A stretch of DNA of 64,000 nucleotides, taken from Prochlorococcus sp. AG-402-L09 (lineage in GTDB: Bacteria > Cyanobacteriota > Cyanobacteriia > PCC-6307 > Cyanobiaceae). The stretch spans positions 1 through 64,000 of the forward strand of contig QCIK01000002.1 in NCBI GenBank assembly GCA_003216715.1, read 5' to 3'. Numbering within the stretch: the first letter of the stretch is position 1; every line of letters begins with the position of its first letter. Positions 3,808 through 35,023 of this stretch are shown piece after piece. The position numbers and the translations under genes were made by a program. The notes beneath the pieces were generated by a model that saw only the letters and a program-made list of their open reading frames with translations, ran no database searches and was not told the origin of the DNA.

Positions 3808-5277
3808 TTAATCCATTGAAATTTCGATGTTTTGAAGTGCCTCTACACCTTTTTCGAAGATTGTTTCAGCGTATTGAGTCCACTTCCCCTGTCCCCAATA
3901 ACGGAAGCAGCTAGTTTCTAATAGCAAAAGGTATAGGAGCGCTTCTTGATAGCTATGGGTTTTTGTCAAAGAGGGATTTTGAACTATTAAATGGTCAAAT
4001 ATTTGATGAAAATAGGAACTAAGTTTTGAAATTGGTTCTAAAACATTTTTATATCCAGTTTCCCAACTCAAGTCGTTAGTCCAGCTAGCTCCACTCAAAG
4101 AAAAAGATTGATCTTCCTCTTTTAATTCTTCAATTGCTTTCTTAAACGAAGTTGGTGTTATAGCCCCTGATATTTTTTCCCATATTTTGTGTTGATTGAT
4201 TGCTTGTATCAATGGATAACTATCTTCATCTATATTTGATGTTTCTAAGAAGTCCAGGTATTCAGATCCGTTCATGGCAATTGTGGGGTTTGTATTCGTT
4301 TTTGGACCAATTTTTTTATATGCCTGAATGAATGCTTGAGGAAATTCGTTCATCATTACCCCGCCATTTTCTCCGTCTGCTATTTGGGAAACAAGCGTGG
4401 GAATAATCTGTTGCCCTAAACTCTGTTTAGATAACCCTACTGCCTCGTAATAAGGTTGCATTTGTCCTACAAGTTTAGTATCTGATCCTTGAGTTTTTAC
4501 AAGGGAAAGAATAGATATTGTCTCTCCATTACTACTTTGAGCTTTGAGCATATTGGGAATATATTTCTGCTCGTCTCTTAGATTTGAGCCATCTATATTT
4601 TGAACGCTATGTTCTTGAACCATCACCCACCGATATCCACATTCCTTAAGAGCTTTTATTAATTTAAAAAGAACATCCGGATGGTTTGGAAGATGCATCT
4701 CAGGCAGAGAGAACCCATTTACCCGACGTAATGCATCTTCTCCGAATATTGCTGCGAAGTGATGCTGCCAGGCAGTTATCTGTAATTTAAAGTCAGAAGG
4801 TGGTGTCGAAGAGGCTACGGCATGACTCCAAAAGGTTCCTAGCCATTCAACATGCGGTTGGACTGTTTGATCAGTCGTTAGGAGTTTTAACGATGCGAGA
4901 ATATCCTCTCGACCCATTTGTTCGATTCCCCAAAGAAGATTTCCGGAGTAATCAAGCATTATTTTGGGATCATATCCCTCATCTATCAGGCTGGGAATGA
5001 TTTCAGCTAGACGTTTATAACATTGAGCAAATGGTTCGGCATTGTGGTTATCTCCCTCTGAAGTGTGTTCAAACATATATTGCAAATGTGAAATGAGCTC
5101 TCCATTTTTACCTGCGGGAATTGTTGGTTGATGCATGTGGAGGGCACATGCAAATCCAGAATTAACATTTTCTAACCTTGACTTTTCTTTTAATTGACTA
5201 CAATCTCTTTCCTTATTTACCAATTCATTAATTGCTAATTCAAATCCACATATCGGTGGTAAGTCTTTGGACTTCAT
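3808..5277 (-). CDS. Glycoside hydrolase family 57 protein
   Basis: This 489-residue protein has the GH57 opening motif HMHQP at about residues 47-51, then LDYSGNLLWG, HVEWLGTFWSH and LPEMHLP, which follow the order of conserved GH57 blocks in the (beta/alpha)7 barrel. Characterised GH57 members act on alpha-glucans such as glycogen or amylose, so a role in storage-glucan metabolism is likely but not proven. The length fits the shorter cyanobacterial members. The C-terminal third is helical. It is transcribed alone; about 200 bp with no recognisable gene separate it from the CIA30-like gene. Confidence 0.8.
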   Translation of the reverse strand: MKSKDLPPICGFELAINELVNKERDCSQLKEKSRLENVNSGFACALHMHQPTIPAGKNGELISHLQYMFEHTSEGDNHNAEPFAQCYKRLAEIIPSLIDEGYDPKIMLDYSGNLLWGIEQMGREDILASLKLLTTDQTVQPHVEWLGTFWSHAVASSTPPSDFKLQITAWQHHFAAIFGEDALRRVNGFSLPEMHLPNHPDVLFKLIKALKECGYRWVMVQEHSVQNIDGSNLRDEQKYIPNMLKAQSSNGETISILSLVKTQGSDTKLVGQMQPYYEAVGLSKQSLGQQIIPTLVSQIADGENGGVMMNEFPQAFIQAYKKIGPKTNTNPTIAMNGSEYLDFLETSNIDEDSYPLIQAINQHKIWEKISGAITPTSFKKAIEELKEEDQSFSLSGASWTNDLSWETGYKNVLEPISKLSSYFHQIFDHLIVQNPSLTKTHSYQEALLYLLLLETSCFRYWGQGKWTQYAETIFEKGVEALQNIEISMD

Positions 5278-30403: not shown

Positions 30404-30560
30404 CTTCTTATTAAATGCTTGATTGATCTAATGATTGGTTTTCATCCAAGCATCAGCCTTAATATTGCTCATAAATATACCGCTTCGCTCCATCAAACAG
30501 ATATGTTTATTTTGAATTAGTTTTTTTGCCGTAAGCCCTGCATCAAGCTATATTGATTAT

Positions 30561-30576
30561 ATCAATAAATATTGAT
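30561..30576. promoter_or_regulatory. Predicted ArsR operator at the pstS promoter
   Basis: ATCAATAAATATTGAT has perfect 6-bp arms (ATCAAT-N4-ATTGAT) and fits the ArsR-family pattern ATCAA-N6-TTGAT. The site between gap and arsR at 34298-34313 is the same except for two central bases, and the identity extends two bases to the left (ATAT...). It ends 2 bp before the first possible start codon at 30579. Confidence 0.65.
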
Positions 30577-30632
30577 CAATGTCAGTGCCTTCACGTCCTA
30601 TGCTTTCATTGCTTTTAAGTCGCAGACCTTTG

Positions 30633-31604
30633 ATGAGCTTTGCTAAGAAGAGTCTTGTCCTCTCCTCTTTAATTATTCTTGGCTCAGGTGGAAGTGCCTT
30701 TGCGGGTGCTCGACTCAGCGGAGCTGGAGCCTCTTTTCCCGCTAAAATCTACACTCGATGGTTCTCTGACTTAGCTAAAGAGCGTGGACCTCGTGTTAAC
30801 TATCAAGCTGTTGGTTCAGGTTCTGGCCGTAAAGCTTTCATTGATGAAACCGTTAATTTCGGTGCGTCTGATGATCCGATGAAAGCAACCGATATTGCAA
30901 AAGTTACGCGGGGATTAGTTCAAATCCCAATGGTTGGTGGCACTATTGCTTTTGGTTATAACTACGATTGCGATCTTAAACTTACTCAAGAGCAAGCTGT
31001 TCGTGTTGCTATGGGTAAAATTACAAACTGGAAAGAGGTTGGTTGCCCTGAAGGAAAGCTAACTTGGGCGCATCGTTCTGATGGTTCAGGTACTACGAAG
31101 GCTTTTACAAATTCCATGCAGGCTTTCTCTAAGACATGGACTCTAGGAACAGGTAAATCTGTCGCCTGGCCTGCTGGTGTTGGTGGTAAAGGTAATGCTG
31201 GTGTTGCTGGCGTTATTCGTAACACTCCTGGTGCAATTGGTTATGTAAACCAGTCATATATTAGAGGTGAAATCAAAGCAGCCGCTCTCCAAAATTTATC
31301 AGGAGAGTTTTTACAGCCAACTACTGAGGCTGGTGCTATTGCTCTTAATGGAATACAACTAGATAAAAATCTAGCCGGTAATAACCCTAACCCTAAGGCC
31401 AAGGGTGCATACCCAATCGCAACCCTTACATGGATTCTTGCTTACGAAACTGGTAATGGTAGAAACACTGATGCCATTAGAGATTCACTTAACTACCTAC
31501 TAAGTGATAAAGCCCAGGCTAAGGCTCCTTCTCTTGGCTTTGTTCCTCTAAAAGGTGATATTCTTTCCAAGTCTCGCGCTGCTGTAAAGCGTATTGCTAA
31601 GTGA
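30633..31604 (+). CDS. pstS: Phosphate ABC transporter substrate-binding protein PstS
   Basis: The mature protein has the PstS landmarks: LSGAGASFPAKIYTRWF, YQAVGSGSGRKAF, NFGASDDPM and AHRSDGSGTTKAF, which line the phosphate site. I choose the ATG at 30633 because it gives a standard signal peptide (MSFAKKSLVLSSLIILGSG, cut after AFA). The frame extends to 30579, but that ATG lies against the operator with no room for a ribosome site. PstS binds phosphate in the periplasm for PstCAB, whose genes are not in this window. A terminator follows. The operator suggests control by ArsR, and PhoB control is also expected in general. Confidence 0.95.
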   Translation: MSFAKKSLVLSSLIILGSGGSAFAGARLSGAGASFPAKIYTRWFSDLAKERGPRVNYQAVGSGSGRKAFIDETVNFGASDDPMKATDIAKVTRGLVQIPMVGGTIAFGYNYDCDLKLTQEQAVRVAMGKITNWKEVGCPEGKLTWAHRSDGSGTTKAFTNSMQAFSKTWTLGTGKSVAWPAGVGGKGNAGVAGVIRNTPGAIGYVNQSYIRGEIKAAALQNLSGEFLQPTTEAGAIALNGIQLDKNLAGNNPNPKAKGAYPIATLTWILAYETGNGRNTDAIRDSLNYLLSDKAQAKAPSLGFVPLKGDILSKSRAAVKRIAK

Positions 31605-31947: not shown

Positions 31948-33210
31948 TTAGGAATTTTTTATAGCTTTTGTATTTGATACTGGAGGTAGTCGTAAACTAG
32001 TCAACAATGAGATAAATACAAATAGGCTTGAACACCATAAACATAGTTGCATTCCTATAGAGGCATTAGCTCCAAGCATGAATAAAACTCCTGATAGGAG
32101 AGTCCCAATCAGTCTCCCTGCCGCATTTGCCATGTAATAGAAGCCTACGTTTAGACTCACGTTTTCCTTGTCCGTATAAGCAAGAACCATATATGAATGT
32201 ATTGATGAGTTCATTGCAAATATGAACCCAAATAATATCAATCCAGCTGTAATTGCTATTTCTGGATTGCTTTGTCGCCATAGTGCTATTGCTATTAGCG
32301 CTGGTATTGCAGTTAAGGCAGCGCTCCAGAATTGAACAGAAGAAACTCCTGGGCTTGTTTTGTTTCCCCATAAATTTCTTAAAGACGGCGCAAACGCTTG
32401 AATAAAACCATAACCAATAACCCACAATCCTAGAAAAGCTCCAATCTCAGAAAAATTCCAATTTAGATACGTTTCAAGAAAAACAGGTAGTGCAACGACA
32501 AACCATACGTCTCTTGCCCCAAAGAGAAAAAAGCGTGCATAAGAGAGGACATTGATCCCTTGAGATTTAGAAAATAAGTCTTTAAAGATTGGTTTGTTTT
32601 TCATCTTTCCTATATCTCCAGGCAAAATTAATGTCATTAGAAATGACAGACCTAAACCGATAGCCATTAATTCAACTGCTTTATTAAATCCAAAACTTGT
32701 AAGCAAAAGTCCACCAAGAAAGAAGCCAACTCCTTTGAGAGCATTTTTTGAACCAGTTAAGATGGCTACCCATTTAAATAATTGATTATTTCCACCATCT
32801 TCTTCTGAGGAGTCTGGAACGACAGTTTTGATGGCACTTTTAGCACTCATCTTATTGAGATCTTTTGCTATGCCACTAATCGCTTGAGCAACCATGACAT
32901 AAATGACACTCAAAAGTTTCGACCAACCACTTGAAACGGGTATCAACATAAATAAGGCGCCGATTTGTAAAAGAGTTCCTACCCAAAGTGTTAGACGTAA
33001 TCCATATCTTGCTCCTATCCAACCTCCATAGAGATTAGTGATGACGCCAAAGAACTCATAGAAAAGGAATAAGAATGCAATTTCTAATGTTGTATATCCA
33101 AGGCTATGAAAGTGAAAAATCACTAGCATTCTTAGAGCACCATCTGTCAGAGTGAATGCCCAATAGTTGGTCGTTACTATTCCATATTGTTGCAATGCAG
33201 TTAATCGCAT
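31948..33210 (-). CDS. arsJ: Organoarsenical efflux MFS transporter ArsJ
   Basis: A 420-residue major facilitator with about 12 helices. The N-terminal sequence (QYGIVTTNYWAFTLTDGAL) and AISGIAKDLNKMSAKSAIK fit the ArsJ family as I know it. ArsJ exports 1-arseno-3-phosphoglycerate, made when arsenate replaces phosphate in the GAPDH reaction; the product breaks down outside the cell. The gene directly upstream, 10 bp away, is the dedicated GAPDH, and arsR is divergent. This is the full set for the pathway, which needs no arsenate reductase. I see no arsC nearby. Confidence 0.85.
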   Translation of the reverse strand: MRLTALQQYGIVTTNYWAFTLTDGALRMLVIFHFHSLGYTTLEIAFLFLFYEFFGVITNLYGGWIGARYGLRLTLWVGTLLQIGALFMLIPVSSGWSKLLSVIYVMVAQAISGIAKDLNKMSAKSAIKTVVPDSSEEDGGNNQLFKWVAILTGSKNALKGVGFFLGGLLLTSFGFNKAVELMAIGLGLSFLMTLILPGDIGKMKNKPIFKDLFSKSQGINVLSYARFFLFGARDVWFVVALPVFLETYLNWNFSEIGAFLGLWVIGYGFIQAFAPSLRNLWGNKTSPGVSSVQFWSAALTAIPALIAIALWRQSNPEIAITAGLILFGFIFAMNSSIHSYMVLAYTDKENVSLNVGFYYMANAAGRLIGTLLSGVLFMLGANASIGMQLCLWCSSLFVFISLLTSLRLPPVSNTKAIKNS

Positions 33211-33220
33211 GTTTTTATTT

Positions 33221-34246
33221 TTAGCCTTTTTCGAGATTTATGACATGGCAAACGAGATCTGCCATTCGACAGCTATAACCCCATTCATTGTCATACCAAA
33301 TATAGACTTTCAGTTGAGTTTTATTGACCACCATGGTTGAGAGAGCATCAATGATTGAACTTCTCGAGTCATTGACATAATCGATTGATACAAGTGGTTT
33401 TTCTTCGTAACCAAGTATTCCTTTTAGCTCTCCTTCAGAGGCTTCTTTGAACACATGATTGACTTCTTCTTGCGTGACCTCTTTCTCTAATTCAAATACA
33501 GCATCAGTTAAAGATCCATTGAGGAGAGGAACTCGAACTGCATGACCATTTAATTTTCCTTGTAATTCAGGGAATATCATCCCTATCGCTTTTGCTGATC
33601 CTGTCGTTGTTGGAATTAAGCTTTGTGATCCGCTTCTGGCTCTTCTTAAATCTGGCTTAAATGAATCAACGATTACCTGAGTATTTGTTAGGTCATGGAG
33701 TGTCGTGATGCTTCCATGCTTAATACCAAAGGTTTGATTAACGACCTTCACTACTGGAGCTAAGCAATTAGTTGTGCAGGATGCTGCTGTTACTAAGCGA
33801 TGTTTATTGGGCTCATATAAATCATGATTTATACCGTAGACGATATTTAGAGCATCCTCTCCCTGTATTTCACTTTTAACAGGACATGCAACGACAACTC
33901 TTTTCATTCCAAGAGTATCGAAATATGGATTTAATGTTTGAGGGGTTTTGAATTTTCCTGAACATTCGAGAATTAGTTCTATTCCTTTTTCCTTCCATGA
34001 CACTTTTGTGAAATCACTTTCTTGAGAAAAAGATATTGGTTGACTTTCAATACTCAGGTTGTTTTGGTCGTGGCTTATTGCTTTGTTCCAACGACCATGT
34101 ACTGAATCAAATTCAAGTAAATGCGCAGCTCCCTTTGCGTCACCCAATGGATCGTTGATATGTGTAATCTCGATATTTTCTCTGCCCCAGAGCGCTCTTA
34201 GAACAAGTCGTCCTATTCGACCGAAACCATTAATACCGATTCGCAT
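33221..34246 (-). CDS. gap: Glyceraldehyde-3-phosphate dehydrogenase, ArsJ-associated
   Basis: 341 residues with the NAD-binding start [19 protein letters not shown] and the catalytic motif [11 protein letters not shown] around Cys157. It begins an operon with arsJ (10-bp gap). In this context the enzyme uses arsenate in place of phosphate to give 1-arseno-3-phosphoglycerate for ArsJ; this role follows from the gene pairing known in Pseudomonas and others. Whether it also serves glycolysis cannot be told. The promoter carries the predicted ArsR operator. Confidence 0.9.
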
Positions 34247-34297
34247 AACGTGTAATTGAGTTGATTGAGTGAATCAATAAAGGATTATATTCCTCAT

Positions 34298-34313
34298 ATC
34301 AATTTATATTGAT
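34298..34313. promoter_or_regulatory. Predicted ArsR operator between gap and arsR
   Basis: ATCAATTTATATTGAT has 6-bp arms ATCAAT/ATTGAT and fits the ArsR-type pattern ATCAA-N6-TTGAT. It is positioned to control both divergent genes. A near-identical copy precedes pstS (30561-30576). Confidence 0.7.
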
Positions 34314-34714: not shown

Positions 34715-34864
34715 AGCAATTAATTTAAATCTAGTTTCCAATTGATTTAGCTCTATTCAGAATTTTTCTAATAATTTTTAGGTAATTATTTCTACTAGGT
34801 ATCAATGGATACTCTTTTATGCTTGGATAGTTATCATATTCTTATTACATCAAGATTTTTTGAT

Positions 34865-35023
34865 ATGAGCAAGAAAATCTCTAAGAAAGCCAGTGCTATT
34901 AGAACAATTTCTTTAGCAGTTGGTTCTCTAAGCCTTCTCGTTATTGCTGTTTCTCAAGTTACAGGCAATGAGGCCTGCACAAGTAATGCTTATTCGATTG
35001 AAAATCAAATACGACTTTCATGA
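34865..35023 (+). CDS. Small membrane-anchored protein (52 aa)
   Basis: I start at the ATG at 34865 (MSKKISKKASAIRTISLAV); the longer frame from 34805 adds sequence without coding character. One helix at about 15-32 is followed by a short tail with one Cys (GNEACTSNAYSIEN). It lies about 150 bp after arsR. Unknown. Confidence 0.5.
   Translation: MSKKISKKASAIRTISLAVGSLSLLVIAVSQVTGNEACTSNAYSIENQIRLS

Follow-up and report, generated by a model that had tools for sequence, protein, structure and literature searches.

In the window, the 64,000-nucleotide stretch of Prochlorococcus sp. AG-402-L09 analyzed here, the promoter of the phosphate-binding protein gene pstS carries a tandem pair of palindromes predicted to be operators of the repressor ArsR. 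Based on comparative sequence analysis, we assign a probability of roughly 85% to the reading that these are ArsR operators on pstS and that ArsR repression relieved by arsenic replaces PhoBR for the sole pstS of this genome. Phosphate uptake is thus probably switched by arsenic sensing, because the one pstS in the genome carries the same kind of paired sites that flank arsR and the standard regulator of phosphate genes was not found. The genome (G000; 43 contigs, 1.62 Mb, 92.5% complete) was examined by pattern searches and in chosen stretches. The features of the pstS-to-arsR segment are as follows.

30526..30554, plus strand: candidate pstS promoter, -35 TTGCCG (30526-30531), 17 bp, -10 TATATT (30549-30554), the -10 lying within operator site 1
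30542..30557: operator site 1, ATCAAGCTATATTGAT, tandem partner of site 2, 3 bp upstream of site 2 and kept in relatives
30559..30576 (core 30561-30576): operator site 2, ATATCAATAAATATTGAT, before pstS
30633..31604 (probable start; frame readable from 30579), plus strand: pstS, phosphate ABC transporter substrate-binding protein (TIGR00975, 231 bits, cut-off 205)
31948..33210, minus strand: arsJ, organoarsenical efflux MFS transporter (NF033734, 574 bits, cut-off 400)
33221..34246, minus strand: gap, ArsJ-associated glyceraldehyde-3-phosphate dehydrogenase (NF033735, 556 bits, cut-off 450)
34296..34313: operator between gap/arsJ and arsR, ATATCAATTTATATTGAT, found in every close relative but the divergent L039
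34385..34714, plus strand: arsR, ArsR/SmtB-family repressor with an ERCVCDL motif (NF033788, 98 bits, cut-off 55)
34849..34864: additional site, ATCAAGATTTTTTGAT, on the 3' side of arsR and followed at once by a small ORF (34865-35023)

Both genes of the ArsJ/GAPDH arsenate-resistance pathway, arsJ and a dedicated gap, are present above their NCBIfam cut-offs. The adjacent repressor is a winged-helix HTH protein of the ArsR family, exceeding the cut-offs of both PF01022 and NF033788, and the Cys-Val-Cys arsenite motif is present at its DNA-binding helix. CxCxL occurs in 107 of 125 ArsR matches, while the aligned high-light sequences among the other 18 read CVCDI. We take the genus group of G000 to be the one known as LLI and group g18 to be the high-light (HL) group. 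Genome searches of G000 returned one ArsR match, one pstS (the usual number in LLI genomes) and no Acr3; the detected output of arsR is therefore gap-arsJ, together with pstS by the present evidence. The pstCAB operon of G000 lacks any ATCAA-N6-TTGAT site, and an extension of this control to those genes was rejected.

Inspection of the pstS promoter reveals the layout ATCAA-N6-TTGAT-N3-ATCAA-N6-TTGAT, two palindromes in tandem 3 bp apart. An earlier sequence-only reading had reported ATATCAATAAATATTGAT and ATATCAATTTATATTGAT before pstS and between gap and arsR, differing solely in their two central bases, and both are exactly as it described; it overlooked site 1, the site at 34849-34864 and the probable pstS start at 30633. 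It had also held that many random occurrences of the motif would speak against the idea. The scan of G000 found the tandem form once, at pstS. The single motif is less sparse: the loose pattern ATCAA-N6-TTGAT occurs at 31 places in G000 (reversed control, 1), most of those outside the ars cluster lying within long ORFs, and 4 of the 31 fall in the 4.4-kb pstS-to-arsR segment, where the genome-wide rate predicts about 0.08. When up to three mismatches are allowed, the 18-mer was found 16 times in the window versus 4.8 expected, and none of 100 shuffles reached 16. The 16-base core ATCAATNNATATTGAT has four copies in the whole genome and none in the reversed control. The two extra copies were discarded as further targets, since both lie in coding sequence (an ABC exporter and recN), each spelling Ser-Ile-Phe-Ile-Asp (SIFID).

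The ATG at 30579 is missing in the relatives L025, L034 and L036, so pstS probably starts at the ATG at 30633 with an MSFAKK signal peptide. Counted from this start codon, operator site 1 would span -91 to -76 and the core of site 2 -72 to -57. The candidate promoter matches the consensus at 9 of 12 positions (0.8 expected in shuffles), a weak match taken alone, and its layout, with the -10 inside operator site 1, is what a repressor site requires. No terminator hairpin was called at pstS. A close relative, L034, has lost both pstS operators through a precise 33-bp deletion (around 4100-4200), leaving a natural operator-less promoter.

A predicted autoregulatory palindromic operator adjoins arsR, at 34296-34313 in the window and at the counterpart position in relatives. 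The further site at 34849-34864 is possibly a third target of ArsR. Nearly every close relative with sufficient sequence retains it, and the small ORF behind it begins MSKKISKKAS. A similar site lies between arsR and pstC in the high-light genome G220.

The tandem arrangement was surveyed across 300 genomes of the family against a reversed control, and was found in 97 genomes versus none for the control. Reading of 30 loci gave 39 tandem pairs, with triples scored as two overlapping pairs: 18 directly before pstS, 17 at gap/arsR and four elsewhere, these four lying in closely alike loci and having no clear target. Among 80 loci with a related ArsR, ATCAA-N6-TTGAT recurs at gap/arsR, and loci with a nearby pstS usually have it ahead of that gene too. 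ArsR relatives from Nitrospira and Gemmatimonadota (~45-60% identity) mostly have the same motif adjoining arsR, which suggests that it belongs to this type of ArsR. The inner six bases vary while the half-sites, which the search pattern fixes, are kept; the 51 distinct pstS sites and 65 distinct arsR sites show similar inner-base preferences.

Some tandem operators were found in other settings. Those at L067 9384-9418, with counterparts in L121, L132, L139 and L143, have no clear target gene, and the nearest frame opens MIFAKKAF, like a pstS start, and then stops. These loci may represent a fourth class of tandem target, their resemblance to PstS being limited to that stub. Cyanophage pstS was rejected as an operator carrier: none of eight phages has a site in the immediate pstS promoter, and two have a single site more than 400 bp upstream. 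Four tandem pairs lie in viral contigs, where none adjoins any of the four query genes.

Bit scores, with true PhoR taken as >200 bits and true PhoB as >250 bits, detected neither protein in the 92.5% complete G000 genome. The best PhoB-type matches there reach 148 bits versus 313-525 bits for true Prochlorococcus PhoB. Both proteins were likewise not found in G056 and G086, complete relatives with the same promoter, nor in the other tandem-site genomes except G130. That genome has two pstS, two arsR and one phoBR, in two arrangements (L149, L162): an ArsR-operator pstS with arsR, and a PhoB-box-type pstS with phoBR, acr3 and a different arsR. Across 35 Prochlorococcus-like genomes with arsR, PhoR is absent from 15 of 16 that have the tandem site at pstS versus 6 of 19 others (Fisher p 3e-4, ignoring kinship), and the sole tandem-site genome with PhoR carries two pstS modules. 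The association between tandem site and PhoR loss recurs on the tree. Independent pairs on a five-gene tree give 3-4 contrasts in the expected direction, with none against in one pairing design and at most one in the other; a kinship-aware test typically gives p 0.125-0.25, there being too few contrasts for significance. Truncated or stop-ridden phoR remnants were seen in G206 (L159), where phoB is intact beside the remnant, and in G224 (G224:C14:35570-35881). The ArsR-type operator at pstS in place of standard PhoB control, as the sequence-only reading had proposed, is strongly supported by this comparative evidence, namely tandem sites at pstS and gap/arsR and the absence of detectable PhoB and PhoR.

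Promoters of pstS fall into two classes. Among LLI genomes, tandem operators are carried by G000, G056, G086, G185, G196, G241 and G248. Repeats resembling a PhoB box are carried by the LLI genomes G146, G161, G173, G206 and G233, in most cases together with one ATCAAG-type site, and also by G110, which has no perfect site. Several arsR-bearing genomes have a linked pstS with a PhoB-box promoter that lacks an ATCAA-N6-TTGAT site. By eye, TTTAAG/GGTTAAG repeats are visible in this class, whereas no Pho-box direct repeats are seen at the G000 promoter. In high-light G220, a tandem-operator pstS, arsJ, gap, arsR and pstC form one cluster (L174), with the arsJ-gap-arsR cassette between pstS and pstCAB. 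Other high-light genomes have two pstS, one of PhoB-box type beside the ars genes and another with a single ATCAAAATAATTTGAT.

High-light genomes also allow the fate of the sites to be compared with and without arsR. ArsR-type pstS sites are intact in 24 of 24 arsR-bearing cases and broken in 4 of 7 without arsR (Fisher p 0.001), a contrast that is supportive only, because the 24 cases were chosen partly for showing this promoter type and the genomes are related. G312 was left out of this count because its pstS is itself damaged. The broken sites arose by point changes in G229, G270 and G313 and by an indel in G245. In G252, G300 and G320, where arsR is not detectable, a single intact site is kept; these sites might be used by another factor, or the loss of arsR might be recent.

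These observations bear on who, if anyone, binds the palindromes. That they are chance products of AT-rich sequence without function is very improbable: the loose motif does recur across G000, mostly within genes, but the tandem pair is unique there, the reversed control is empty in 300 genomes, and the pair holds the same position before pstS in many species. We rejected a chance origin on these grounds of uniqueness, control and conservation. A different dimeric regulator, either an ArsR/SmtB paralogue or an unrelated repressor, could instead bind the sites, their likeness to the arsR site then reflecting a shared AT-rich palindromic form. The perfect sites in the three arsR-negative high-light genomes lend this some weight, as does the lone ATCAAGAAAAATTGAT site, not clearly tied to ArsR, that certain LLI genomes have in their PhoB-box promoters. 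We nonetheless regard a different regulator as unlikely, given that tandem pairs in the loci read occur nowhere but at pstS and gap/arsR, bar one target without a clear gene, that the motif follows ArsR into unrelated phyla, and that G000 has a single ArsR match.

A somewhat stronger competitor, though still an improbable one, is that pstS is mainly under phosphate-starvation control, by PhoBR or otherwise, with ArsR merely trimming its level. Several relatives do have PhoB-box-like repeats before pstS, some together with one ArsR-type site. The G000 promoter shows no such repeats by eye, and PhoB and PhoR were not found in its genome; another phosphate-responsive factor is possible. We favor arsenic-relieved repression of pstS by ArsR.

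Under the favored mechanism, ArsR dimers in an arsenic-free cell would occupy both tandem palindromes, masking the -10 element along with the point where transcription is expected to begin (+1), and would hold pstS low as at ArsR's own divergent gap-arsJ/arsR promoter. Arsenate entering through the phosphate transporter would be converted to the ligand sensed by ArsR, which the CVC motif suggests is arsenite. Arsenite would then release ArsR, such that expression of pstS, gap-arsJ and arsR would increase jointly. A larger supply of phosphate-binding protein would let phosphate win over arsenate, and induced gap-arsJ would export 1-arseno-3-phosphoglycerate. ArsR control would in this way stand in place of PhoBR for the sole pstS of G000. 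Here we infer the binding, repression, inducer and benefit, as well as the preference of PstS for phosphate over arsenate. Because arsenate enters by phosphate transport, derepression should peak when there is little phosphate relative to arsenate, and ArsR could hypothetically therefore stand in for PhoBR. A more speculative extension, which we hold only tentatively, is that in PhoBR-less Prochlorococcus ArsR took over the sole pstS, with the arsenate leak at scarce phosphate acting as a phosphate-shortage signal, and that pstS promoters switched between PhoB and ArsR types several times.

PhoBR belongs to the accessory genes of Prochlorococcus (PMC10119275), and the literature consulted leaves open how strains without it regulate phosphate uptake. 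An ArsR operator on the sole pstS of such strains would answer this in a specific and testable way for a phototroph that is among the most abundant, and would tie ocean arsenic chemistry to phosphate uptake. It also carries a warning that some published Pho boxes may be ArsR sites. For sphX-gap3, Table 1 of a 2007 study lists Pho boxes predicted in Nostoc PCC 7120 and Anabaena and reads them as PhoB/SphR sites (PMC1906773). Those boxes, CATCAACTtttATTGATGA (alr1094-1095) and CATCAACTtttTTTGATGA (Ava_3716), are exact ATCAA-N6-TTGAT matches before a PstS-like gene; the printed letters of the Nostoc box contain CATCAACTTTTATTGATGA, and alr1094 is followed by gap3 (PMC1906773). Judged by their letters, both may be ArsR sites.

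The direct link between arsenic sensing and pstS proposed in the sequence-only reading is thus supported by sequence, but it has precedents in Agrobacterium tumefaciens 5A (PMC7965956) and in a 2014 proposal for cyanobacteria (PMC4284471). As far as the accessible part of that 2014 review goes, ars-linked pstS/gap3/MFS clusters of cyanobacteria have the same gene set as here, and arsenic co-regulation was suggested from gene order. The clusters were thought to form one operon with arsB and arsC, with no operator described in that part, whereas pstS of G000 has its own predicted promoter and operators (PMC4284471). The var operon of Vibrio cholerae is likewise an ArsR-gap-ArsJ system, in which the pathway repressed by ArsR consists of a GAPDH and ArsJ and does without arsenite efflux (PMC9601151). 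Its ArsR has no intact arsenite motif and is probably a sensor of arsenate, in contrast to the Prochlorococcus ArsR with its intact CVC motif, and pstS has no occurrence in the main text of that paper (PMC9601151). In A. tumefaciens 5A, ArsR1 represses pstS1 and phoB1 (PMC7965956), arsenite induction is independent of phosphate, and gel shifts located two ArsR1 binding sites (PMC7965956 and the 2012/2016 work cited there), whose motifs are described as unlike the known 12-2-12 repeats. Both systems have a pstS adjoining an ars locus under ArsR, the operator in the Prochlorococcus pstS promoter being a prediction from sequence. The Agrobacterium pstS1 belongs to an extra pst1/phoB1 operon, with a separate pho/pst2 locus serving the normal phosphate response; in G000 the sites stand on the sole pstS and PhoBR was not found. 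That is to say, ArsR control of a pstS is already known, and its predicted arrangement on the sole pstS of a genome without PhoBR is a new variant.
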